Shown: positions 24,794-62,842, numbered from the stretch's first letter. The stretch is 64,000 nt of DNA from Gemmatimonadota bacterium (GCA_023554245.1 JAMJQL010000061.1:1-64000), one strand, 5' to 3'. Numbers and translations are program-made. The notes: generated by a model from the sequence alone, not told the origin.

Positions 24794-25927
24794 ATGCGAT
24801 TCCGCCCCTTCGAAATGGAACGCTGGCAGTCTCTGTGGGAGAATCGGGTCCGGTACAACCTGTCGGAAAGCGGAGTCTCGCCGTTCTCACTCAGCGAGCT
24901 GAGTGAGCTGACCGGCACCGATCCGGCCGGCACGGTGCTCGGTTATGGTCACACGGAGGGCTCGCCGCTTCTGCGTGAGCGAATCGCGGCCCTGTATCCG
25001 GGAGCGACGCCGGAGGAGGTGCTCGTCACCAGCGGCAGCGCGGAGGCGAATTTTGTCGCCTGCTGGTCGCTGATCGAGGCCGGAGACCGGGTGGTGATCG
25101 TGACACCGACCTACGGGCAGACTCCGGGTCTGGCAGAGAGCCTGGGTGCGGAGGTCGTGGAGCTGCCGCTCGAGGAGGATCGAGGCTGGCAGCCCGCACC
25201 GGGGGCCGCCGCCAGTGCGATCGGTCCAGGGACGCGGCTCGTCGTCATCACGAATCCCAACAACCCGACCGGTGCCGTGCTGACGCCTTCCTCGATGGCC
25301 GAGATCATCGAGGCGGCGGAACGAGCCGGCGCGTGGATTCTCGCCGACGAGGTGTACCGCGGTGCCGAGCTCGCCGGTCCGGAAACGGAATCCCTGTGGG
25401 ATGGTGCACGGCGCGTGATAGTCACGGCGTCGCTCTCCAAGGCCTACGGTCTTCCGGGCCTGCGGATCGGATGGCTGGTGGCCGATCGTGGCTTTCGAGA
25501 CGAGGTGTGGGCGCGGAAGGACTACACGACGATCACGCCCTCGGTTCTGTGTGACCGGCTCGCAACGGCCGCTCTCGAGACGGAGAATCGCGCGAAGATC
25601 CTCGCCCGCACGCGGGAGATACTCGTGCGGCACCTGTCGATCCTCGATGCGTGGGCTGCCGCTCACGCTGAAGTCCTGCGTTACCGCCCTCCCGACGCCG
25701 GAGCGATAGCGCTGTTCGGCTACGATCTCCCGGTCGGGTCGGCCGAACTGGCCGAGCGGCTGAAGGGCGAGCGAGACACGCTTCTGGTTCCGGGGATCCA
25801 CTTTGGTCTCGAGGGCCACTTCCGGGTGGGATTCGGATACTCGGAGGAACAGCTTCGCGGCGGCCTGGAGGCGCTCTCGAGTCTGCTCTCGGAACTGACC
25901 GAAACCCGGATCGCTTCCTCTCCGTAG
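24794..25927 (+). CDS. Class I/II PLP-dependent aminotransferase
   Basis: 377 residues, fold type I. Visible signatures: LGYGHTEGSPLLRERIA, TSGSAEANFVACW, TNPNNPTGAVL, the cofactor-binding Asp/Tyr in LADEVYRGAE, and the Schiff-base Lys in SLSKAYGLPGLRIGW. It transfers an amino group between an amino acid and a 2-oxoacid. Closest in style to capreomycidine-synthase-like or aspartate-aminotransferase-like members; the substrate cannot be told from sequence. Likely cotranscribed with msrA. Confidence 0.88.
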   Translation: MRFRPFEMERWQSLWENRVRYNLSESGVSPFSLSELSELTGTDPAGTVLGYGHTEGSPLLRERIAALYPGATPEEVLVTSGSAEANFVACWSLIEAGDRVVIVTPTYGQTPGLAESLGAEVVELPLEEDRGWQPAPGAAASAIGPGTRLVVITNPNNPTGAVLTPSSMAEIIEAAERAGAWILADEVYRGAELAGPETESLWDGARRVIVTASLSKAYGLPGLRIGWLVADRGFRDEVWARKDYTTITPSVLCDRLATAALETENRAKILARTREILVRHLSILDAWAAAHAEVLRYRPPDAGAIALFGYDLPVGSAELAERLKGERDTLLVPGIHFGLEGHFRVGFGYSEEQLRGGLEALSSLLSELTETRIASSP

Positions 25928-25981
25928 GGTACCGCGAGGCGAATCATCTGTGATCCGCCCCGTACGAACAGGAGGAAGATG

Positions 25982-26188
25982 ATGCGTAATCCCGGAACCG
26001 CCGCGGTCCTGAGCCTGCTCGTGCCCGGCGTTGGTCAGATATACAACGGGACGTTCTGGCGAGGCCTGTTCTGGCTCATCGTCACGCCCGGATTCTGGAT
26101 CGGCACCGGAGGGTTCCTCGGCTGGGTCGCACACGTGATCTCGGCGATCACGGCGCACAACTACGCGAAGGAGAATCCTCACCGCTGA
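25982..26188 (+). CDS. Small TM2-like membrane protein
   Basis: 68 residues. ATG 25982 gives better spacing from GGAGG (25971-25975) than the adjacent ATG 25979. The sequence AVLSLLVPGVGQIYNGTF followed by GLFWLIVTPGFWIG is typical of small TM2-like proteins with two short membrane helices; the C-terminus is HNYAKENPHR. Function unknown. It lies between the aminotransferase and the FAD-subunit gene on the same strand. Confidence 0.7.
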   Translation: MRNPGTAAVLSLLVPGVGQIYNGTFWRGLFWLIVTPGFWIGTGGFLGWVAHVISAITAHNYAKENPHR

Positions 26189-26209
26189 AGTGCGGGAGCG
26201 GGTCTCTCG

Positions 26210-26238
26210 TTGGTACGAAGCTGAATCTGCACTATCTT
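26210..26238 (+). promoter_or_regulatory. Promoter giving an apparently leaderless hcrB transcript
   Basis: TTGGTA (26210-26215) and TATCTT (26233-26238) are 17 nt apart. The -10 ends 7 nt before ATG 26246, so transcription would begin at the start codon itself. No Shine-Dalgarno sequence precedes this ATG. Confidence 0.45.
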
Positions 26239-26245
26239 GCCGGCC

Positions 26246-27247
26246 ATGCTTCGACTTCACCCCTACGAGTATCACCGTCCCGTCCGACTGGATGAGGCTC
26301 TGGACCTGCTCGACGAGCATGGCGACGACGCCATGCCGATCGCTGGCGGAACGGACCTCGTGCCCAACATGAAGCATGGCCTGTTCACCCCGGGCCATCT
26401 CGTTTCCCTCGGCCGCGTTCGAGAATTGCATGGAATCGATCGAGCCGACGACGGCTCGATCCGTATAGGTGCGGCTGAGAGCCTCGACTCCGTGAGTCGG
26501 GATGCGGCGGTTCTCGAGGACTGGCCCATGCTGGCAGATGCCTGCTCGAAGATCTCGGGACCCCAGCTGCGGCGTGCCGGAACGATCGGCGGAAACGTCT
26601 GCCTCGACACCCGTTGCACGTACTACAATCAGACTCGCTTCTGGCGCGAGTCGCTGGGCTTCTGTCTGAAGAAGGACGGCGACGTCTGTCACGTCGTGCC
26701 AGGTGGAACGCGCTGCGTCGCCGCTCATTCAGCGGATGGGGCGACCGCCCTTTCCGCGATAGGAGCCCGACTGGAGATCGCCGGCCCCGGCGGAGAGCGA
26801 CGAACTGTACCGATCGATTCGTTCTTCACGTCGGACGGCGTGTGGAACCGGCGCATGAAGCGGGGCGAGCTTCTCGTGGCGCTCTCGTTGCCGCCTCCTG
26901 CGCCCGGGACCCGGGCGGCCTTCCGCAAACTCCGGATTCGCGACTCGATCGATTTCCCGCTCGCCAACGTCGCCGCCGTGGCAAGAATCGACCAGGCCGG
27001 CTCCACGGAATCGCTTCGATTGTACGTGTCCGGAATGGGGTCTTATCCACGCAAGGTGGGGAAGGTCGAGGAAATCGTCGCAGGCGGCCCGCTCGACGCA
27101 GAACGTATCGAAGGGGTCGCGGAGCAGGCTTTCCGCCAGTGCCACCCTCTGTCCAACATCACGGTGGACGCCGAGTGGCGGCGGGCCATGGTCCCGGTCA
27201 TGGTCTCCCGTGTTCTGCACGGTCTGGGTGAGACGATCGCGGGCTGA
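26246..27247 (+). CDS. hcrB: Molybdenum hydroxylase FAD subunit with 4Fe-4S insertion (4-hydroxybenzoyl-CoA reductase beta)
   Basis: 333 residues from ATG 26246. The FAD motif PIAGGTDLVPNMKHG lies at 31-45 and the second one, AGTIGGNVCLDTRC, at 111-124. Cysteines 124, 140, 148 and 157 are spaced 16, 8 and 9 residues apart. That is the spacing of the extra 4Fe-4S cluster ligands (Cys122, 138, 146, 155) in the Thauera 4-hydroxybenzoyl-CoA reductase beta subunit, a feature absent from ordinary xanthine-dehydrogenase FAD subunits. In that enzyme reduced ferredoxin drives reductive dehydroxylation to benzoyl-CoA. The partner subunit genes lie about 3.4 kb upstream. No benzoyl-CoA pathway genes are visible nearby. 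Confidence 0.88.
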   Translation: MLRLHPYEYHRPVRLDEALDLLDEHGDDAMPIAGGTDLVPNMKHGLFTPGHLVSLGRVRELHGIDRADDGSIRIGAAESLDSVSRDAAVLEDWPMLADACSKISGPQLRRAGTIGGNVCLDTRCTYYNQTRFWRESLGFCLKKDGDVCHVVPGGTRCVAAHSADGATALSAIGARLEIAGPGGERRTVPIDSFFTSDGVWNRRMKRGELLVALSLPPPAPGTRAAFRKLRIRDSIDFPLANVAAVARIDQAGSTESLRLYVSGMGSYPRKVGKVEEIVAGGPLDAERIEGVAEQAFRQCHPLSNITVDAEWRRAMVPVMVSRVLHGLGETIAG

Positions 27248-33626: not shown

Positions 33627-34913
33627 GTGCGCCGTATCGGCAGACGGATCGCGATATCGACCTCGATCGCCGGATTCGCGCTGGTGGCCGGCTGTTTCCC
33701 TTCTCCCGTGGATACCGCTCCGACCGTCGCGAGTTCTGATTCCTTCGTCCGGGCTCCCTACGTCCAGAACGTCTCTCAGGATGCTGGTACGATCGTCTGG
33801 ATGACGGGCGAAGGCTCGCGAGACTCATTCAGGTACCGCACCGTAGATTCTACCGGCGAGGGAGCGCAGTCGAGGGGCGATTCGATCCGATGGCGATCAG
33901 TTGCGATCGAAGACCGCGGACGTGGAGTTCGTGCAGCACGGGTAGCGGGGCTGCCCGCCGGGGCGGCAATCGAGTACGAGGTTCTGACGGAGGGAATCTC
34001 GTCGGGGATCCACTCGTTCCGAACCGCCCCAATTCCAGGTCCTGCCGGATCGGTTCGCGTCCTGCTGTTCGGCGACTCGGGCTGGGGATCCGAAGGGCAG
34101 ATCGAACTCGCCGGACGGATGGAGCGATTGGAGTCGGACCTTTCGATCCACGTAGGCGACATCGCCTACAACGACGGATCGGAGACTGACTTCACCGAGC
34201 GTCACTTTCGGGTGTATCGACGCATGCTCGCCGGCCAGCCGTTCTTCCCGTCGGTCGGCAATCACGACGTGCGCGCCGACGCGGGGGCTTCCTACGACCG
34301 GGCATTCGACTGGCCCGGCCGGGATGCCGGACGGCGATACTACGCATTCCGCTGGGGAACCGTGCTGTTCCTGGCGCTCGATACCAGCAGTAAGACGGCG
34401 GATGTAGAAGGGCTCTGGGCCGGAACCGGCCCGCAATTCGACTGGCTGGAAGGACAGCTGCGGGCGGCGAGCGTGGACTCGACCGTGGAATGGACCATCG
34501 TATTCGGGCACCACCCGCCATACAGTCACGCGGTGGGAATCAGCGGACATGGCCAGAACCGGGATCTCCGACGGAATCTGACCCCGCTCTTCGATCGCTA
34601 CGGGGTCGATCTCGTGGCGTCGGGCCACGATCATCACTACGAGAGGCTTCGCCCGGTGCGTGAGGGAAGGCCGGTTCCGGACGGGTGCGGGCCGGTTTAC
34701 ATCGTCCAGGGAGCGGGAGGCGCCTCACGGTATGCCCGTCACGTGGACAGCTCTCAATTCACGGCCTTCGCGTCACGCGCCTACTCGTTCACGGAGTTGA
34801 CCGTCGAGGGAGACAGGTTGCGTGGACGGACGATCGGGACGGATGGCGACGTGATCGACCAGTTCCTGATCCGGCCCTACGCGGGACCGGATACCTCCGG
34901 TTGCGGCGACTGA
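33627..34913 (+). CDS. Purple-acid-phosphatase-like secreted metallophosphatase (lipoprotein)
   Basis: 428 residues from GTG 33627 (VRRIGRRIAISTS); the longer upstream frame overlaps the lon promoter. Signal and lipobox are SIAGFALVAGC. Residues about 45-140 form a purple-acid-phosphatase N-terminal beta-sandwich (RAPYVQNVSQDAGTIVWMT). The catalytic domain has all metal motifs: FGDSGWG, HVGDIAYNDG, SVGNHD, VFGHHPPYS and SGHDHHYER. It should dephosphorylate something outside the cytoplasm. Its 3' end overlaps the start of an outer-membrane barrel gene, which in turn overlaps a kinase-like lipoprotein gene. Confidence 0.88.
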   Translation: MRRIGRRIAISTSIAGFALVAGCFPSPVDTAPTVASSDSFVRAPYVQNVSQDAGTIVWMTGEGSRDSFRYRTVDSTGEGAQSRGDSIRWRSVAIEDRGRGVRAARVAGLPAGAAIEYEVLTEGISSGIHSFRTAPIPGPAGSVRVLLFGDSGWGSEGQIELAGRMERLESDLSIHVGDIAYNDGSETDFTERHFRVYRRMLAGQPFFPSVGNHDVRADAGASYDRAFDWPGRDAGRRYYAFRWGTVLFLALDTSSKTADVEGLWAGTGPQFDWLEGQLRAASVDSTVEWTIVFGHHPPYSHAVGISGHGQNRDLRRNLTPLFDRYGVDLVASGHDHHYERLRPVREGRPVPDGCGPVYIVQGAGGASRYARHVDSSQFTAFASRAYSFTELTVEGDRLRGRTIGTDGDVIDQFLIRPYAGPDTSGCGD

Positions 34914-36268
34914 CACCCGGTCGGGCGAGCGTCCCGATCCGGACGACGAGGCACGCGCGCGCCCTGCTCGCGTCAGGACTGGTCGCGCTCATGGTCCATC
35001 CCGCGGGAGCCGCCGCGCAGGAGTCAGAGTCGCCCGCGAATCCGCAGAGTCAGGATCCCGTCGCCGCGGTGGATTCCATCCGGGCCTCGTATGATCGTCC
35101 GGCAGCCGAGCCGCCGACGGACTGGGTGGACGTCGTGGAGTTCCCTCTCAAGGTGGTGGCCTTTCCCTTCAAGCTCGTGCTGGTGGACTTGCCCGGATGG
35201 ATCGCCGGTCAGGTCCTGGTTCCGCGCGCACCGAGCGGGTTCGTGCGGGCCTACCGATCGATGCTGAACTGGGGATTCCGCCCGACGATCCGAGCCTCGA
35301 TCGGTCCACGAAGCGCAGCCGCGATCGAAGGGCAACTGTTTCGCTACGATCCCCTCTACGTCCACTCCGCCCTCTCCCGCCGCGGTTCGCAGAGACACAG
35401 GGTCGGAGTTCTGGTCGCGGATCCGCGCCACTCGTTCGTGGCCGAGGCGCGGTGGCAGCGGGATGCGCAGCTCACCTTCTACGGCATCGGACCGGACAGC
35501 GACCCGGATCGTGGCCTCTACAGCCGCGACTACTGGGACCTGCGAGCCCGGGGCACGACCCGGCTGAGCAGGCGCACAGGCCTCGACCTCGGGCTCGGAT
35601 TCGAGAGCAACAAGATCGATGAGCCGGTGTGGTCGGACGACGAATCGATCTGGGACGAGTTCGACACTTCCGACCTGTACGGCGCGAACGATGACACCCG
35701 CTACTTGCGCATCGACGGGGGTGTCACGCTCGACCTCACCGGGCGCCGGGAGTTTCAGGACACGGGCGCCTGGCTGCGTCTCCAGGGGGCCGCGTGGCGC
35801 GGAGTCGCCGACACTCCCTCCGACTTTCACGCGATAACGGCGATCGCGCAGGGATACCTGCCGATCAACCGCCGCCAGCAGCTCGCCCTTCGGGGGGTAA
35901 CGCGGATTGCCCGTTCCGACTCGGACGAGATGGTTCCTTTCTTCCACCTGAGCCAGCTCGGGGGCAGCCGAACCGCGATCGGTTATTCGACCTCCCGGTT
36001 CACCGACAACGACATGCTCTCGCTCGTCGCCGAGTGGAGGTACGAAGTCTGGCGGGACATCCACGACATCGTCCGCTCGGAGTTCTTTCTCTACTTCGGA
36101 GAAGGAACGGTCCAGCGGCGCCTGGGCGAAGTATCATCCGGTGACTGGCAGGCGTCTTACGGAATCGGCGCGCGGATGGTGATGAAGGAGCGTCTGCTCG
36201 GCGTAGCCTTTCTCGGGTTCAGCGACGAGGACGTTCAGGTGGGGATTCGCGGAGACTGGCCCCTGTGA
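34901..36268 (+). CDS. BamA/TamA-like outer-membrane beta-barrel protein
   Basis: 455 residues from TTG 34901, the only start giving a full signal peptide (ARALLASGLVALMVHPAGAAAQ). A short periplasmic part (VEFPLKVVAFPFKLVLVDLP) precedes a barrel: strand-like segments, QLGGSRTAIGYSTSRFTD corresponding to the conserved barrel region of the D15/surface-antigen family, and C-terminal GIRGDWPL. No POTRA repeats are evident, so this is a short member. It overlaps the phosphatase gene by 13 nt and the kinase-like gene by 4 nt, which points to joint production of all three. Confidence 0.75.
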   Translation: MRRLTPGRASVPIRTTRHARALLASGLVALMVHPAGAAAQESESPANPQSQDPVAAVDSIRASYDRPAAEPPTDWVDVVEFPLKVVAFPFKLVLVDLPGWIAGQVLVPRAPSGFVRAYRSMLNWGFRPTIRASIGPRSAAAIEGQLFRYDPLYVHSALSRRGSQRHRVGVLVADPRHSFVAEARWQRDAQLTFYGIGPDSDPDRGLYSRDYWDLRARGTTRLSRRTGLDLGLGFESNKIDEPVWSDDESIWDEFDTSDLYGANDDTRYLRIDGGVTLDLTGRREFQDTGAWLRLQGAAWRGVADTPSDFHAITAIAQGYLPINRRQQLALRGVTRIARSDSDEMVPFFHLSQLGGSRTAIGYSTSRFTDNDMLSLVAEWRYEVWRDIHDIVRSEFFLYFGEGTVQRRLGEVSSGDWQASYGIGARMVMKERLLGVAFLGFSDEDVQVGIRGDWPL

Positions 36269-38034
36269 TCTCGAGTGCTGACGTGCTGCGACCGGGAGGA
36301 GACATCGGCGGAACGTGGCCGGCATGGTGGCTCGGGCTGCTGGCCATGGTCGTGGCCGGTTGCGCCGACCCTGTTCCACCCTCGCTCCGGCCGGAGCCGA
36401 TCGCCTGGGCCGATACGTTGCCGATTCCAGAGCCGGAGGCACGTGACCCGATCGAAGTTCCGAAGATCATGAAAGACGCCATGGCAGGCGAGATGTCGCG
36501 TGTGATCACGATACGGAACCTCGCCGGCGAGCAGCACGAGGCCCTGAACGTCACGCGTTGGGATGACGTGGTTCCCTCAGCCTGGTTCGAGCATAGAAAC
36601 GCGGCACATCCCCTGACGCCCGCACAGGTGGAGGTCGGGCCTACGGTCGGAAACGGACCTGACACCACGGGTGCTCTGGAGATCATCTCCGCCAAGGTTC
36701 AGGGCGTATCGCCCGGATTCAACATCCGCGACGCGCGGGGCGACCGGTACGTCGTGAAGTTCGATCCGAAGGGATTCCTGCACATGAGCAGTGCGGCAGG
36801 GGTGATTTCGAATCGCCTGCTCCATGCCGCGGGCTACCACGTGCCCGAGGACTTCGTGTTCGTGTTCTCGAAGTCGAAGCTCGCGGTGGCCGAGGGCGCC
36901 ACGATCAGGGGCGAAGATTTCGAAGAGCGGCCGCTCACCCTGGATGTGGCCTTCGACGTACTGGCGATGACCGATACTCTGCCCGACGGGCGCTACCTCG
37001 CGGTCAGTTCGAAGTTCGTGCCCGGTCCGCCCAAGGGCCCGTTCTTCTTCGACGGAGTCCGCGACGACGATCCGAACGACTGGTACCACCACGAGTACAG
37101 GCGCGAGTTGAGAGGCCTCTACGTGGTCTCCTCGTGGATCAACCACGTGGACATGCGCTTCATGAACACGATGGACGCGTACGTGCCGCCGGGCTACCTG
37201 AAGCACTACCTGATCGATTTCGCCGCCAGCCTCGGATCCGGGACCACCCGGCCGCACGAGCCACGTGAGGGCACCGAGTACAACGTGGACCTCTGGCCCT
37301 CGCTCGGACGGGTGTTCAGCCTCGGTTTCTACCGGGTCGGGTGGGAAGGCAGGGAGTGGGAGGTGATCGACCCGACGATCGGCTGGCTCGAGGCGGAAGA
37401 GTTCGACCCCGCCGGCTGGAAACCGAACTGGCCCAATCGGGCATTCCAGCTCGCGACCGACCGCGACGGGTACTGGGGCGCAAAGCTGGTGGGCTCGTTC
37501 ACGGACGAGCAGATTCTCGCGGCAGTGAGAGCGGGCCGGTTGCCGACGGCTCGCGCGACGGACACGCTGGCGAAGATTCTGATGGTCCGTCGAGATCGAG
37601 TCGTGGACCACTGGTACCGCAAGGTATCGCCGCTCGAGAACTTGTCGGTCGTGCCGCAGTCCGCGACGGGCGCTGAAGAGAACGTGCTGCCGGTCATCGT
37701 ACGATTCGACGACCTCGGGCTCCGGAAGGGCCTGTGGCGGGCGGACGAGATCGGCTACCGCTGGACGCTTGAGCACGAAGCGCTGCGCCGCGACTGGCGA
37801 GGTCGCGGCGCGGCCGAAGCTGGAGATGGCCGGCAGCGCATCGTCCTGGGGCCGGGCGACCGGGATCCGGGGGAGCGGCCGTCGGACGACGCTCCGACCG
37901 GCCCGGACGCAATCGCGAAACTGGAGATCGAGGTGGAACACCTGACGGGAGGAGAACGGCAACCGGCGGTCACCGTCTGGCTGGAGTGGGACGCCTCAGC
38001 GGGGCGCTATCGTGTCGCCGGCCTGGAGCACTGA
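36265..38034 (+). CDS. Lipoprotein with protein-kinase-like (HipA/CotH-type) catalytic domain
   Basis: 589 residues. The signal peptide WLGLLAMVVAGC places lipidated Cys33 outside the cytoplasm. A kinase-like core follows: GDRYVVKFDPKG with candidate ATP-binding Lys165, an alphaC-like helix after it, ELRGLYVVSSWINHVDMR with Asp296, Asn301 five residues later (the spacing of the catalytic loop in protein kinases), and HYLIDFAASLGSG with Asp318 in a DF pair like the DFG metal site. HipA, CotH and Fam20 kinases use similar reduced motifs. The residues from about 330 to 500 (FDPAGWKPNWPNRAF, RRDRVVDHWYRKV) are helical; the C-terminus is a beta-rich tail. Catalysis is not proven; it could be a pseudokinase. 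Confidence 0.65.
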   Translation: MISSADVLRPGGDIGGTWPAWWLGLLAMVVAGCADPVPPSLRPEPIAWADTLPIPEPEARDPIEVPKIMKDAMAGEMSRVITIRNLAGEQHEALNVTRWDDVVPSAWFEHRNAAHPLTPAQVEVGPTVGNGPDTTGALEIISAKVQGVSPGFNIRDARGDRYVVKFDPKGFLHMSSAAGVISNRLLHAAGYHVPEDFVFVFSKSKLAVAEGATIRGEDFEERPLTLDVAFDVLAMTDTLPDGRYLAVSSKFVPGPPKGPFFFDGVRDDDPNDWYHHEYRRELRGLYVVSSWINHVDMRFMNTMDAYVPPGYLKHYLIDFAASLGSGTTRPHEPREGTEYNVDLWPSLGRVFSLGFYRVGWEGREWEVIDPTIGWLEAEEFDPAGWKPNWPNRAFQLATDRDGYWGAKLVGSFTDEQILAAVRAGRLPTARATDTLAKILMVRRDRVVDHWYRKVSPLENLSVVPQSATGAEENVLPVIVRFDDLGLRKGLWRADEIGYRWTLEHEALRRDWRGRGAAEAGDGRQRIVLGPGDRDPGERPSDDAPTGPDAIAKLEIEVEHLTGGERQPAVTVWLEWDASAGRYRVAGLEH

Positions 38035-38038
38035 AGCG

Positions 38039-38752
38039 ATGCCTGCCCGTCTGGCCCGACACCGGGTGGATGTCCCGGACGCGTTCGATCATGTCGCCCA
38101 CCGCTACGACCTGCTCACGGGCATGAATCCGGGCTATCGCAGACACCTGGCCTTGAGCGCCCGTCGGCTGGCGCTCGATCCCGGATCCCGTGTGCTGGAT
38201 CTGTGTTGCGGCACGGGTCTCTCCACACAGGCGATCGCATCGGAGATTCCCGATGCCGAGATCGTGGCGCTCGACGCGTCCGCGGGCATGCTGGCCGTCG
38301 CGCGTCGCAAGCGGCTCGGCTCCGGGGTTCAATTCGTACTCGGCGACGCGATGGCACCGGAGGAGGCGGGGATCCGGGGTCCGTTCGACGGCATCCTGAT
38401 GGCGTATGGAATCCGGAACGTGCCGGAGCCGGACGCCTGCCTTACGCGACTGTATCGACTCCTGAGCCCTGGAGGTTCGATCTGCTTCCACGAGTATTCG
38501 GTTGCAGACTCCCGGTGGAGCCGATTCGTCTGGAACGCCGTGAGCCTGGGAGTGGTGATCCCCAGTGGTCTGTTGTTCTCCGGCTCCTCCCGGATCTACC
38601 GTTACCTCCGCCGCAGCGTGAACGAATTCGACGGCGTGAGGGCATTCGAGCGGCGACTCTCCCGGGCCGGTTTCGAGGCCGTTCAAACGGAACCGATGGA
38701 CGGGTGGCAACGCGGAATCGTGCATTCCTTCCTGGCAAGGAGGCCCGGATGA
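38039..38752 (+). CDS. UbiE/COQ5-family SAM methyltransferase (CrtT-like)
   Basis: 237 residues from ATG 38039. SAM-binding motif I is VLDLCCGTGLSTQ; motif II is IVALDASAGML; the UbiE-family signature appears as MAYGIRNVPEPD. By family it could methylate a quinone, but the ATGA overlap with crtU copies the crtT-crtU pair known from Streptomyces carotenoid clusters, so a role with carotenoids is more likely here. No menaquinone genes are adjacent. It starts 4 nt after the kinase-like gene. Confidence 0.8.
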   Translation: MPARLARHRVDVPDAFDHVAHRYDLLTGMNPGYRRHLALSARRLALDPGSRVLDLCCGTGLSTQAIASEIPDAEIVALDASAGMLAVARRKRLGSGVQFVLGDAMAPEEAGIRGPFDGILMAYGIRNVPEPDACLTRLYRLLSPGGSICFHEYSVADSRWSRFVWNAVSLGVVIPSGLLFSGSSRIYRYLRRSVNEFDGVRAFERRLSRAGFEAVQTEPMDGWQRGIVHSFLARRPG

Positions 38753-40287
38753 GCGGGGGTCGGCCAGTTCCGCTCTGGTCCGGGTCCCGGCAGGAAGCCC
38801 CTCCCGGCCTGACGGCGATCGTATGCGGGGGTGGGCTCGCGGGCCTGGCGGCGGCGACGGTGCTCGCTGAGCGGGGCGTACCGGTGACGGTCATCGAGGC
38901 AGAGAACGAGCTCGGGGGCCGGCTTCGCACCTGGCCGGTGGCGCTTCCCGATGGAAGTGTGCTCGGTATGGAACGTGGCTTCCACGCATTCTTCCGCCAG
39001 TACTACAATCTCCGGGCTCTGCTTCGTCGCATCGACCCGGATCTGTCCCGCCTGACACCGCTGAGGGATTATCCGGTTCTTGGTCCCGGCGGTCTCGTTC
39101 AGTCGTTCGAGGACCTCCCGACGCGAGTCCCGGCGAATTTCTTCGCGATCGTGAGGCGGGCAGATACGTTCCGCTGGCGCGACCTGCTTCGCGTGAACGG
39201 ACGGGCGGCACTCGAGATGCTCCGTTACAGTTCCGATCGGACATACGCCCGTTTCGACGGGCGAACCGCCCGTGAATACCTGGACTCGCTGAATTTCCCG
39301 CCGGCTGCCCGCCGCATGCTCTTCGATGTCTTCTCGCACTCGTTCTTCAATCCCGAGGAGAAGATGTCGGCGGCCGACCTCCTGATGATGTTCCACTACT
39401 ACTTCCTCGCGAACGAGGAAGGACTGGTGTTCGATGTGCTGGACGACACTTTCGAGCGATCACTCCTGACCCCTCTGCGCGACTACCTGGAAGCTCGAGG
39501 CGTCAACTTCGAGCTCGGTCGTCGGGTTACGGCCCTGTCACCAGCGGCTCGATCCATCGAGGGCAGCGTGCCGGGCGGCGCTCAACGCGATGGTTGGAGG
39601 GTCTCTCACCAGGCCACCGACGGGATGGGGAGCTCGCGGGAACAGGATGCCGATCTCGTCGTTCTCGGCCTCAACGTGTCCGCGCTCCGAGCGCTGGTCG
39701 AAGCCTCCCCCGCGGCGGGGGACCCGCCGTGGCGGTCACGTGTCGATTCCTTGAGCGAAACCAGTCCGTTCGCGGTGTGGAGGATGTGGCTGGACCGCCC
39801 GACGGCGGAGGGACGAGCGGCGTTCGTGGGAACGGCGGGATTTCCCCTGCTGGACAACATCTCGCTCTATCACCTGTTCGAGGCAGAGAGCAGCGAGTGG
39901 GCTGCCCGAACCGGTGGAAGCGTCATCGAGCTGCACGCCTATGGGATGCCGGAGCACTCGACGGAAGCGGAAATCAGGACCGCAATGCTGGCGGGTCTCC
40001 ACGAATTGATCCCCGAGAGTCGAGACGCCGGCCTCGTGCACGAGGAGTTCTTCATCGAGCGCGACTGCCCGGCGTTTCCGCCGGGCGGACACGCGCAGCG
40101 CCCCGGCGTCGAGACACCGGAGCCGGGACTGGCGCTCGCCGGTGATTTCGTCCGGATGGACTTCCCCACCGCATTGATGGAACGTGCCACGGCGTCCGGA
40201 TTCCTCGCCGCCAGCGTTCTGCTGCGTCCGCATGGCGTCAGTCCGGAACCACTCCAATCGGTTGCACGGAAGGGTCCGCTCGCCTGA
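38749..40287 (+). CDS. crtU: Isorenieratene synthase CrtU (carotenoid desaturase/methyltransferase)
   Basis: 512 residues. The FAD-binding N-terminus is VCGGGLAGLAAATVLAERG with VIEAENELGGRLRTW. Diagnostic blocks of actinobacterial CrtU follow: GFHAFFRQYYNLRALLRR, FDVFSHSFFNPEEKMSAADL, MMFHYYFLANEEGLVFDV, RTGGSVIELHAY and a C-terminal FPTALMERATASGFLAA. CrtU converts beta-ionone rings to aromatic phi rings by desaturation plus methyl shift, acting on beta-carotene in the membrane. Start ATG overlaps the methyltransferase stop. CrtY and the other carotenoid genes lie 3-8 kb downstream. Confidence 0.87.
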   Translation: MSGGRPVPLWSGSRQEAPPGLTAIVCGGGLAGLAAATVLAERGVPVTVIEAENELGGRLRTWPVALPDGSVLGMERGFHAFFRQYYNLRALLRRIDPDLSRLTPLRDYPVLGPGGLVQSFEDLPTRVPANFFAIVRRADTFRWRDLLRVNGRAALEMLRYSSDRTYARFDGRTAREYLDSLNFPPAARRMLFDVFSHSFFNPEEKMSAADLLMMFHYYFLANEEGLVFDVLDDTFERSLLTPLRDYLEARGVNFELGRRVTALSPAARSIEGSVPGGAQRDGWRVSHQATDGMGSSREQDADLVVLGLNVSALRALVEASPAAGDPPWRSRVDSLSETSPFAVWRMWLDRPTAEGRAAFVGTAGFPLLDNISLYHLFEAESSEWAARTGGSVIELHAYGMPEHSTEAEIRTAMLAGLHELIPESRDAGLVHEEFFIERDCPAFPPGGHAQRPGVETPEPGLALAGDFVRMDFPTALMERATASGFLAASVLLRPHGVSPEPLQSVARKGPLA

Positions 40288-61112: not shown

Positions 61113-61543
61113 GCCGCACCTCCTTGGTCATTGGCGGTCTGCCTACTTACTCGCAAGGGCCGACCACATGAGAAGAAGGCCGCCCAGAGCACAAATCTAA
61201 CGTCCTCAGCCTGACAACCGCGAGGAAAGTTTCTACAAGCAAGAATCACACCCTCAACGAATACGTATCTCGGGTCTGACTTGGTGGTCTTACCTCACAA
61301 TATCTAACTGTCAGCTCGACGCGACTCCCGGAGACGTGAGGCCGCACGAACTGAGCTGTAGGTGCCATCCTGGGGCATGCCGACAAAAGCTCGACGCGCC
61401 GCCTACAGGGCGGCAACGGTGAGCGTTAATCTGTGGGGGAAGCGGTAGATGCACGCAGCGTTGATCTAGGCGATGTGTGCGCGTATTGTTCCATGCTGCG
61501 CCCCGTTGACCTTTTAGTGTTCATCTCACGAAGGGAGGCGGAT
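61113..61543. other. Divergent intergenic region, lower GC
   Basis: 431 bp between two secreted-protein genes. Contains two ATCTAAC sequences (61195-61201, 61302-61308) and a hairpin GCCGCC/GGCGGC (61398-61414). No gene is supported. Confidence 0.5.
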
Positions 61544-62842
61544 GTGCGCTCAGCAACCACGGCCCTAGCTGTTCTCATCCTCTTGTCGGCATGCACTCCA
61601 GATGCCGACCCGCCAACCAGTGTTACTACAACTCCTCCGCCGGACAGGGTCACGTTTACCATGGTGCCAAGTGGGTCGACATACCTACTTGACTCCACCT
61701 ACACTGTCAGTATCGACGCTACTTCCGGGAGTGACCCTGTCACTCAGGCCGAAGAGACCGCAGTTGAACAGGCTTTTGACAGTCTGGCGGTTCTGTTCGA
61801 CCACGCCAACGACGGACTACCCGAGTTCAGTGTCGTTTACGGTCAAACTGGTGACATTCAAGTCATGTTCGATGGTGATGACTCGGACGAGTACTACTGC
61901 GGGGGTGCCTCAGGCGGCGTGATCACGCTTGAACGGTTCTCATCATCTGCAACCGACTGCGGCACCAGTGGTGGGCAGCTCACGAGCAAACTGGCTGGGT
62001 TGGTCATGCATGAATTCGGCGAGGAGGTCGGCGCAGTACCTCTCGCCAACGTTAATCTTGACACCACTGACCTGACGTACTTGAAGTGCATCTGGCCCCA
62101 CTATTCATACAACAAAAACAGCGGTTATCCGTCCCAGCTGTGTAGGTGGGACGAACAGTGGGTCTATGCCCTTTTTGAACTCCGACCAAGCCCGCCTACC
62201 GACTTCTACGAGAACTCCCTGATCGTAAATGTCGCCCTGACGGCCTCAGGAGCAAACGTTCTTCGATATGATACCGTCACATTCACCGCGTCTCTAACAC
62301 AGTGGAACGGTGTCTATGAGAGTTCTGCAGATGAGGCACTGAAGACTTGGTGGAAGGACGGCGGCATGTATGTCAGCCCAGCGCACGGCGACAGTATGTA
62401 CGTCGACGTCAAGGCCGGCGCCTCCGATGAGACTCTCGTCGTCAGAGTAACCGTCGACGACTCGACAGGCTACGCAGTGTGGCCTTGGGGGCAGGCGTCG
62501 GATACCGTGCTTGTCACTGACCCCGTGCCAACATCTGTCACGTTGCCTGACTCTTTAGTCCTTACCGATGACAATGACAGCACGTTGTACCAGGATCTTA
62601 CGGCAGTGACCACGCCCGCCGATCCAAACGGTTTGTACGACTACGATTGGACGATCGGTAACACGAACATTGCACGCATTGTCGGTGGTGGTCGAACCGT
62701 AACCATCGAGGGCTACTCCGCAGGAACTACCACTGTAATTGTCGAGGTCGAGGAAACAGTGTCGGATACCACGACTGTAGTGGTCGACTGCGGGACGAAG
62801 CGGAATCCCTCATGTATCCAGTACGGACCGATTCCGATGTGA
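61544..62842 (+). CDS. Secreted lipoprotein with degenerate zincin-like motif, unknown function
   Basis: 432 residues from GTG 61544, preceded by AAGGGAGG. Signal and lipobox: TTALAVLILLSAC. A central segment SKLAGLVMHEFGEEVGAVPLAN resembles the metzincin helix (HExxHxxG) but has Glu at the second His position. Further C-terminal are two beta-sandwich Ig-like repeats (NVALTASGANVLRYDTVTFT; SVTLPDSLVLTDDNDSTLYQ). Codon usage is lower in GC than most of the window. Function unknown. Confidence 0.7.
   Translation: MRSATTALAVLILLSACTPDADPPTSVTTTPPPDRVTFTMVPSGSTYLLDSTYTVSIDATSGSDPVTQAEETAVEQAFDSLAVLFDHANDGLPEFSVVYGQTGDIQVMFDGDDSDEYYCGGASGGVITLERFSSSATDCGTSGGQLTSKLAGLVMHEFGEEVGAVPLANVNLDTTDLTYLKCIWPHYSYNKNSGYPSQLCRWDEQWVYALFELRPSPPTDFYENSLIVNVALTASGANVLRYDTVTFTASLTQWNGVYESSADEALKTWWKDGGMYVSPAHGDSMYVDVKAGASDETLVVRVTVDDSTGYAVWPWGQASDTVLVTDPVPTSVTLPDSLVLTDDNDSTLYQDLTAVTTPADPNGLYDYDWTIGNTNIARIVGGGRTVTIEGYSAGTTTVIVEVEETVSDTTTVVVDCGTKRNPSCIQYGPIPM

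Follow-up and report, generated by a model that had tools for sequence, protein, structure and literature searches.

A kinase-fold lipoprotein paired with a POTRA-less Omp85 barrel: a candidate envelope phosphorylation cassette in many bacterial phyla

Introduction

The closest described counterparts of the locus reported here include kinases that work outside the cytoplasm. The Fam20-type kinases of the secretory pathway, including Fam20C, the Golgi casein kinase, are atypical kinases whose ATP must cross a membrane, as we propose for the protein designated P3 below. CotH spore-coat kinases are bacterial kinases that act outside the cytoplasm. The common view is that ATP is missing from the periplasm, and kinases acting there would therefore need a supply. 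A third point of reference is provided by the HipA-like kinases (HipA, HipT and CtkA), two of which, HipT and CtkA, are matched by the predicted fold of P3.

At the outer membrane, Heinz and Lithgow (2014; PMC4104836) identified Omp85 proteins that lack POTRA domains (noNterm) and fusions of Omp85 to a PF00149 domain (Metallo), and they noted that the barrel of the fusion resembles that of noNterm. The word "kinase" is absent from the text of that paper. NTT carriers of free-living bacteria, with PF03219 domains that occur with and without HEAT repeats, were treated by Major et al. (2017; PMC5381601); that article assigns no function to these NTT and NTT-HEAT proteins.

Here we analyze a three-gene locus within a 64-kb stretch of DNA from a member of the Gemmatimonadota, hereafter the window. 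A sequence-only reading had proposed that it may encode a matched extracytoplasmic kinase and phosphatase, made together with an outer-membrane partner and acting on surface substrates, a composition for which no described system was known; a search of open-access papers likewise found none. Each component belongs to a known fold, and what appears new is their combination. The locus shares with the noNterm and Metallo proteins a POTRA-less barrel and, in its neighborhood, a PF00149 phosphatase that echoes the fusion, but in this locus phosphatase and barrel are not fused, the phosphatase being a lipoprotein of its own, and a kinase-like lipoprotein accompanies them.

Results

A three-gene locus and its flanks

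P1, P2 and P3 are open frames on the forward strand of the window (Table 1). With start codons taken as GTG, TTG and GTG, respectively, which are plausible predictions, the frames overlap by 13 and 4 nt as had been claimed, the exact overlaps hinging on the choice of start. Signal peptides had been ascribed to all three products, and inspection by eye reveals an N-terminal hydrophobic segment on each, with a lipobox in P1 (LVAGC) and P3 (VVAGC) and an AxA-type cleavage site in P2. In P1, both Metallophos (PF00149) and Metallophos_C (PF14008) exceed the Pfam cut-off, plant purple acid phosphatases are the best solved relatives in a search of PDB chains, and all five metal motifs can be read (FGDSG, GDIAY, GNHD, GHHP and GHDH). 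Together with the lipobox, these features bear out its description as a secreted purple-acid-phosphatase-like lipoprotein with a complete set of metal motifs.

Table 1. Features of the locus and positions in the window.
Feature	Position	Strand	Evidence or remarks
P1, purple-acid-phosphatase-like (calcineurin-like) predicted lipoprotein, 428 aa	33627..34913	+	PF00149 E 6.9e-15, PF14008; facultative cassette member
P2, POTRA-less Omp85 barrel (predicted), 455 aa	34901..36268	+	PF01103 E 9.5e-7, model, BamA match
P3, predicted lipoprotein, protein-kinase-like fold (predicted) and C-terminal beta-sandwich, 589 aa	36265..38034	+	AlphaFold model, structure matches, alignment
P3 K165, beta-3 lysine (VVKFD)	36757..36759	+	invariant 74/74; end of model strand 161-166
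P3 G179, alpha-C position	36799..36801	+	in helix 174-189; Glu in 44/74 relatives, Gly in window's clade
P3 catalytic loop H294-x-D296-x-R298-x-x-N301	37144..37167	+	after helix 280-292, before strand 302-307
P3 D318 of DF[GAS] (window: DFA)	37216..37218	+	74/74; after strand 311-316
UbiE-type methyltransferase	38039..38752	+	PF01209 E 7.4e-28; 4 nt past P3; same downstream place in L046, L047, L048
Flavin amine-oxidase-type oxidoreductase	38749..40287	+	PF01593 E 1.2e-33; overlaps methyltransferase gene; kept in L046, L047, L048

Upstream of P1, a divergent gene encodes a Lon-like protease, recognized by reading its sequence. Downstream of P3, the UbiE-type methyltransferase gene probably shares an operon with P3 in the window's clade. 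Because this gene and that of the flavin oxidoreductase were found adjacent only in that clade, we place both outside the core cassette. Elsewhere in the window, a second calcineurin-like phosphoesterase frame occupies the extreme start (2-1042, +; PF00149 E 3e-7), and two long frames, for which Pfam gave no match at E 1e-5, are putative genes (24887-26728, -, 613 aa; 61433-62842, +, 469 aa).

Predicted folds of P2 and P3

The PF01103 (Omp85) match of P2 exceeds the Pfam cut-off. Its structural model (pLDDT 84.4 overall) consists of the signal peptide, helices at residues 75-106 and 113-123, and 16 strands, and a structure search matches it to BamA barrels (E 3.6e-11). The N-terminal helices, which are modeled with lower confidence, stand where POTRA domains would be, and no POTRA domain was found by Pfam search or in the model. 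The earlier assignment of P2 to BamA/TamA-like barrels without POTRA repeats is thus upheld, and on the strength of the PF01103 match, the model and the BamA match we place the protein in the POTRA-less (noNterm) type of the Omp85 superfamily.

For P3, the AlphaFold2 model is of high confidence (pLDDT 92.2, pTM 0.91) and its elements follow a kinase-like order: beta3-Lys, alpha-C, alpha-E, HxDx[KR]xxN, beta7, beta8 and DF[GAS]. The spacing of HxDx[KR]xxN is that of a protein-kinase catalytic loop. An alignment of 74 relatives shows K165, D296, N301, H314 and D318 to be invariant, with K or R at position 298 in 74/74 and H294 retained in 62/74. The kinase-like catalytic residues noted from the sequence therefore prove to be fixed across the family, and the Lys, Asp, Asn and DFG Asp are placed as expected on the model. 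A prediction lacking a kinase fold would have spoken against the original proposal; the confident model has kinase topology, and P3 is accordingly predicted to have a protein-kinase-like (PKL) fold.

One residue departs from the canonical pattern. The alpha-C Glu, which pairs with the beta3 Lys, is typical of active canonical kinases and is not retained in all PKL families. It is absent from 30/74 relatives, and the Gly that replaces it in the window weakens the claim of that P3 to be an active canonical kinase while leaving the claim for the fold unaffected.

A Foldseek search of the PDB with the P3 model returned a Fam20 Golgi casein kinase as top match (E 5.6e-4, prob 0.98), then PI4KIIalpha, with HipT, CtkA and BMP2K also among the best matches and some unrelated weak matches between them. 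The weak structural matches also include a phage CotH-type protein. Since the PDB E-values are modest and whole-chain TM-scores are low (0.26), P3 is assigned to the kinase fold and not to any subfamily. Identity to Fam20 is 9% over the aligned region and no sequence-level match between them was found; P3 differs from those kinases in being a lipoprotein of bacteria whose gene stands with that of an Omp85 barrel, and its kinase activity is predicted. Pfam and NCBIfam contained no match to P3, its sequence and profile gave nothing but spurious matches against PDB chains, and a scan of viral contigs found nothing. The commonest sub-threshold Pfam matches among the 74 members were HipA_C (9/74, best E 0.035) and HipA_2 (4/74, best E 0.016).

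Membership of known families was considered and rejected. All HipA_C and HipA_2 matches lie below the family threshold, far from membership, and P3 is unlike HipA-like kinases in its signal peptide, its C-terminal beta-sandwich and its surroundings, in which no toxin-antitoxin context was seen. No CotH or Fam20 Pfam match occurs in the 74 members; the likeness to Fam20 is structural, and CotH kinases belong to another gene context and other organisms.

Linkage of the barrel and P3 across phyla

In a single profile scan of about 85,000 species genomes, 465 relatives of P3 were confirmed; within the phylum of the window, one was present in 21/298 genomes. Our neighborhood counts use the best 80 of the 465. 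Judged by record titles, they represent roughly a dozen phyla and candidate phyla, including Gemmatimonadota, Zixibacteria, Calditrichota, Latescibacterota, Nitrospirota, Acidobacteriota, Bacteroidota, KSB1, Poribacteria, Eisenbacteria, Krumholzibacteria and Aminicenantes. Because the 80 loci are top-scoring relatives that share descent, the counts and densities taken from them are not independent. Neighboring genes were defined as open frames and not as gene-caller output, and the profiles for calcineurin-like (MPE) phosphatases, PAP2 and NTT were seeded from matches in these same loci.

Among the best 80, 67 loci have at least 1.2 kb of sequence upstream of P3, and in 64 of these the barrel gene immediately precedes P3, an arrangement that is not due to chance. 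The proposal would have lost its footing had the genes never been neighbors elsewhere; in fact barrel and P3 adjoin across many phyla, and this pair forms the core cassette. In L086, L087 and L109 (and L066, with a partial match only) the upstream flank is present and the barrel was not found or appeared as a fragment by profile; the P3 frame of L109 contains unknown residues. At L116:1644-5109, on the same record as L040, two tandem P3 genes stand right behind one barrel gene.

This pairing, the strictest linkage in the cassette, would also fit an account in which P3 serves the barrel as an accessory lipoprotein, comparable to BamB, that has a kinase fold and either binds nucleotide or is a pseudokinase, and the pair assembles or displays outer-membrane or surface proteins, with phosphorylation not its main job. 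The barrel is of the Omp85 type, a part in the biogenesis of membrane proteins has been suggested for POTRA-less Omp85 proteins (PMC4104836), and the alpha-C Glu missing from part of the family points the same way. However, invariance of the Lys, catalytic Asp, Asn and DFG Asp over 74 divergent sequences would be unusual in a scaffold, and the NTT and phosphatase neighbors described below are left unexplained. We regard a mainly accessory role as unlikely, although it is the strongest of the alternatives.

Phosphatases vary with lineage

Some phosphatase is encoded within 1.5 kb in 27/80 loci, and two unrelated folds are represented: calcineurin-like enzymes (17/80) and PAP2-type enzymes (12/80), with both kinds at two loci. 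Even the calcineurin-like genes differ in type and position. In the window's clade (L046, L048, L049 and L059) a P1 homologue stands upstream of the barrel gene, whereas in Zixibacteria, KSB1, LCP-89, Marinimicrobia and others the gene immediately after P3 encodes a different type of calcineurin-like lipoprotein. The phosphatase is thus a facultative member of the cassette, and its kind varies with lineage; from the differing folds, sequences and positions we infer that phosphatases were recruited separately. Of the original proposal, the pairing of barrel and P3 and the predicted kinase fold stand, while "matched kinase and phosphatase" is too strong.

Several other genes near the pair were recorded. 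At L095:11671-12969 and L125:4107-5438, P3 is directly followed by a protein of 430-440 aa that begins like a signal peptide and has no match in Pfam, and in L125 a long NTT-type carrier lies behind it. Seven Nitrospirota loci (L080, L081, L091, L092, L094, L111 and L118) have a predicted lipoprotein of ~340 aa without a Pfam match after P3, either directly or at most 3.3 kb downstream, and in these loci PAP2 precedes the barrel. At L067:3610-8376, upstream of the barrel, a multi-PAS/GAF histidine kinase of 1588 aa is encoded, and a related large frame occupies that place in L063.

The PAP2 genes bear on what P3 might modify. P3 could be catalytic but act on a small molecule, glycan or lipid in the manner of Fam20B or PI4K, or transfer AMP instead of phosphate, with the PAP2 and calcineurin-like enzymes sharing that lipid or glycan. 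Lipid-phosphatase-type PAP2 genes beside the pair in 12 loci and the lipid kinase PI4KIIalpha among the structural matches both lean in this direction, but the protein kinases among the matches (the Fam20 casein kinase, HipT and CtkA) score comparably or better, and no lipid or glycan biosynthesis neighbor stood out in clustering, in which most clusters carried no annotation. Next in order after the accessory role, this is an improbable alternative.

NTT-type carriers beside the pair

Although they lie outside the three-gene span, recurrent NTT-type ATP/ADP carriers bear most on mechanism. With the seeded profile, 34 NTT genes (PF03219) were detected within 1.5 kb, 31 of them on the same strand, in 29/80 loci; the other 51 have none inside that distance, and flanks are short in some of these. 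On the same contigs, NTT density per kb falls from 0.166 within 1.5 kb to 0.061 between 1.5 and 3 kb and to 0.015-0.027 at distances over 3 kb, so that the density beside P3 is about eightfold that further out. NTT-type carriers adjoin barrel and P3 in L062, L063, L064, L067, L078, L079, L106, L107, L108, L100, L101 and others, and a single-domain NTT is often paired there with a longer NTT-HEAT-type one. These carriers, with and without HEAT repeats, resemble those treated by Major et al. (2017), although the barrel-P3 gene context was not found in the passages of that article that were examined, and no role is assigned there to the fusions.

Representative adjacent NTTs exceed the curated PF03219 cut-off, as do NTTs in 10/10 genomes tested, and no NTT gene was found in 14 well-known control genomes. 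The ten genomes were picked for NTT-P3 adjacency and cannot serve as a rate; each has few NTT genes, and in four of them (L067, L098, L107 and L108; positions matched by hand) every NTT gene detected adjoins P3. One group of adjacent NTTs matches ATP/ADP carriers of known structure from plants and chlamydiae (E 2.3e-13). In this group, a Lys aligned with AtNTT1 K527, a residue reported as required for ATP binding (PMC3306366), is present in 10/10 members, the PDB numbering being inferred from two lysines at equal offset; an L110-type group has no equivalent lysine.

The window itself has no NTT gene beside P3. Homologues are encoded on contigs C152, C65 and C42 of the same genome, so the link is weaker for that organism. 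Related genomes in which no P3 was detected also carry NTTs, and these carriers are thus not exclusive to P3.

Discussion

The analysis shows the gene arrangement, its repeated linkage, the predicted folds and the conserved residues, and the simplest account that covers barrel, P3, phosphatases and NTT carriers together would be a phosphotransferase that acts outside the cytoplasm, at the outer membrane. We propose that P2 and P3 constitute an envelope module, the kinase-fold lipoprotein acting together with the POTRA-less Omp85 barrel, with NTT-supplied ATP in many lineages and phosphatases as partners, a reading we consider plausible and just short of probable. P3 would most likely be a nucleotide-using phosphotransferase whose target, outside the cytoplasm, is a protein, glycan or lipid, and it would contact the P2 barrel at the outer membrane, perhaps exposed to the surface. 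In many lineages, an inner-membrane carrier of the NTT type, encoded alongside, may exchange cytoplasmic ATP for ADP made outside, a supply that can be likened to the reliance of secretory-pathway kinases on nucleotide import into the lumen; in the window's own organism, this supply would depend on the NTT genes located on other contigs. An extracytoplasmic phosphatase, either PAP2 or the calcineurin-like lipoprotein, would undo the modification or deal with by-products.

The direction of NTT transport would be the opposite in a scavenging role. Frequent phosphatase neighbors would suit a cassette that scavenges external nucleotides or organic phosphate, with capture by the barrel or lipoprotein, trimming by the phosphatase and import by the NTT, but we know of no Omp85 barrel that serves as a nucleotide pore, the invariant catalytic Asp and Asn are not needed for capture alone, and the NTT and phosphatase are each missing from most loci while barrel and P3 remain together, making this the least probable of the alternatives and a distinctly unlikely one. 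In its favor, the characterized NTTs of intracellular parasites take in host nucleotides (Major et al., 2017; PMC5381601).

Extended to its full reach, the envelope module would represent a cross-phylum phosphorylation system in which the NTTs of free-living bacteria export ATP to the periplasm for a barrel-docked outer-membrane kinase, countered by an extracytoplasmic phosphatase; we advance this broader version more tentatively, with the balance somewhat against it. P3 adds to the kinase-like superfamily a family that has no Pfam or NCBIfam model and occurs in hundreds of genomes. If the NTT reading is true, the cassette offers an ATP supply for periplasmic kinases and gives a testable role to the NTT and NTT-HEAT proteins of free-living bacteria. 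The composition of the cassette suggests that bacteria may put ATP to use outside the cytoplasm in a manner so far undescribed.
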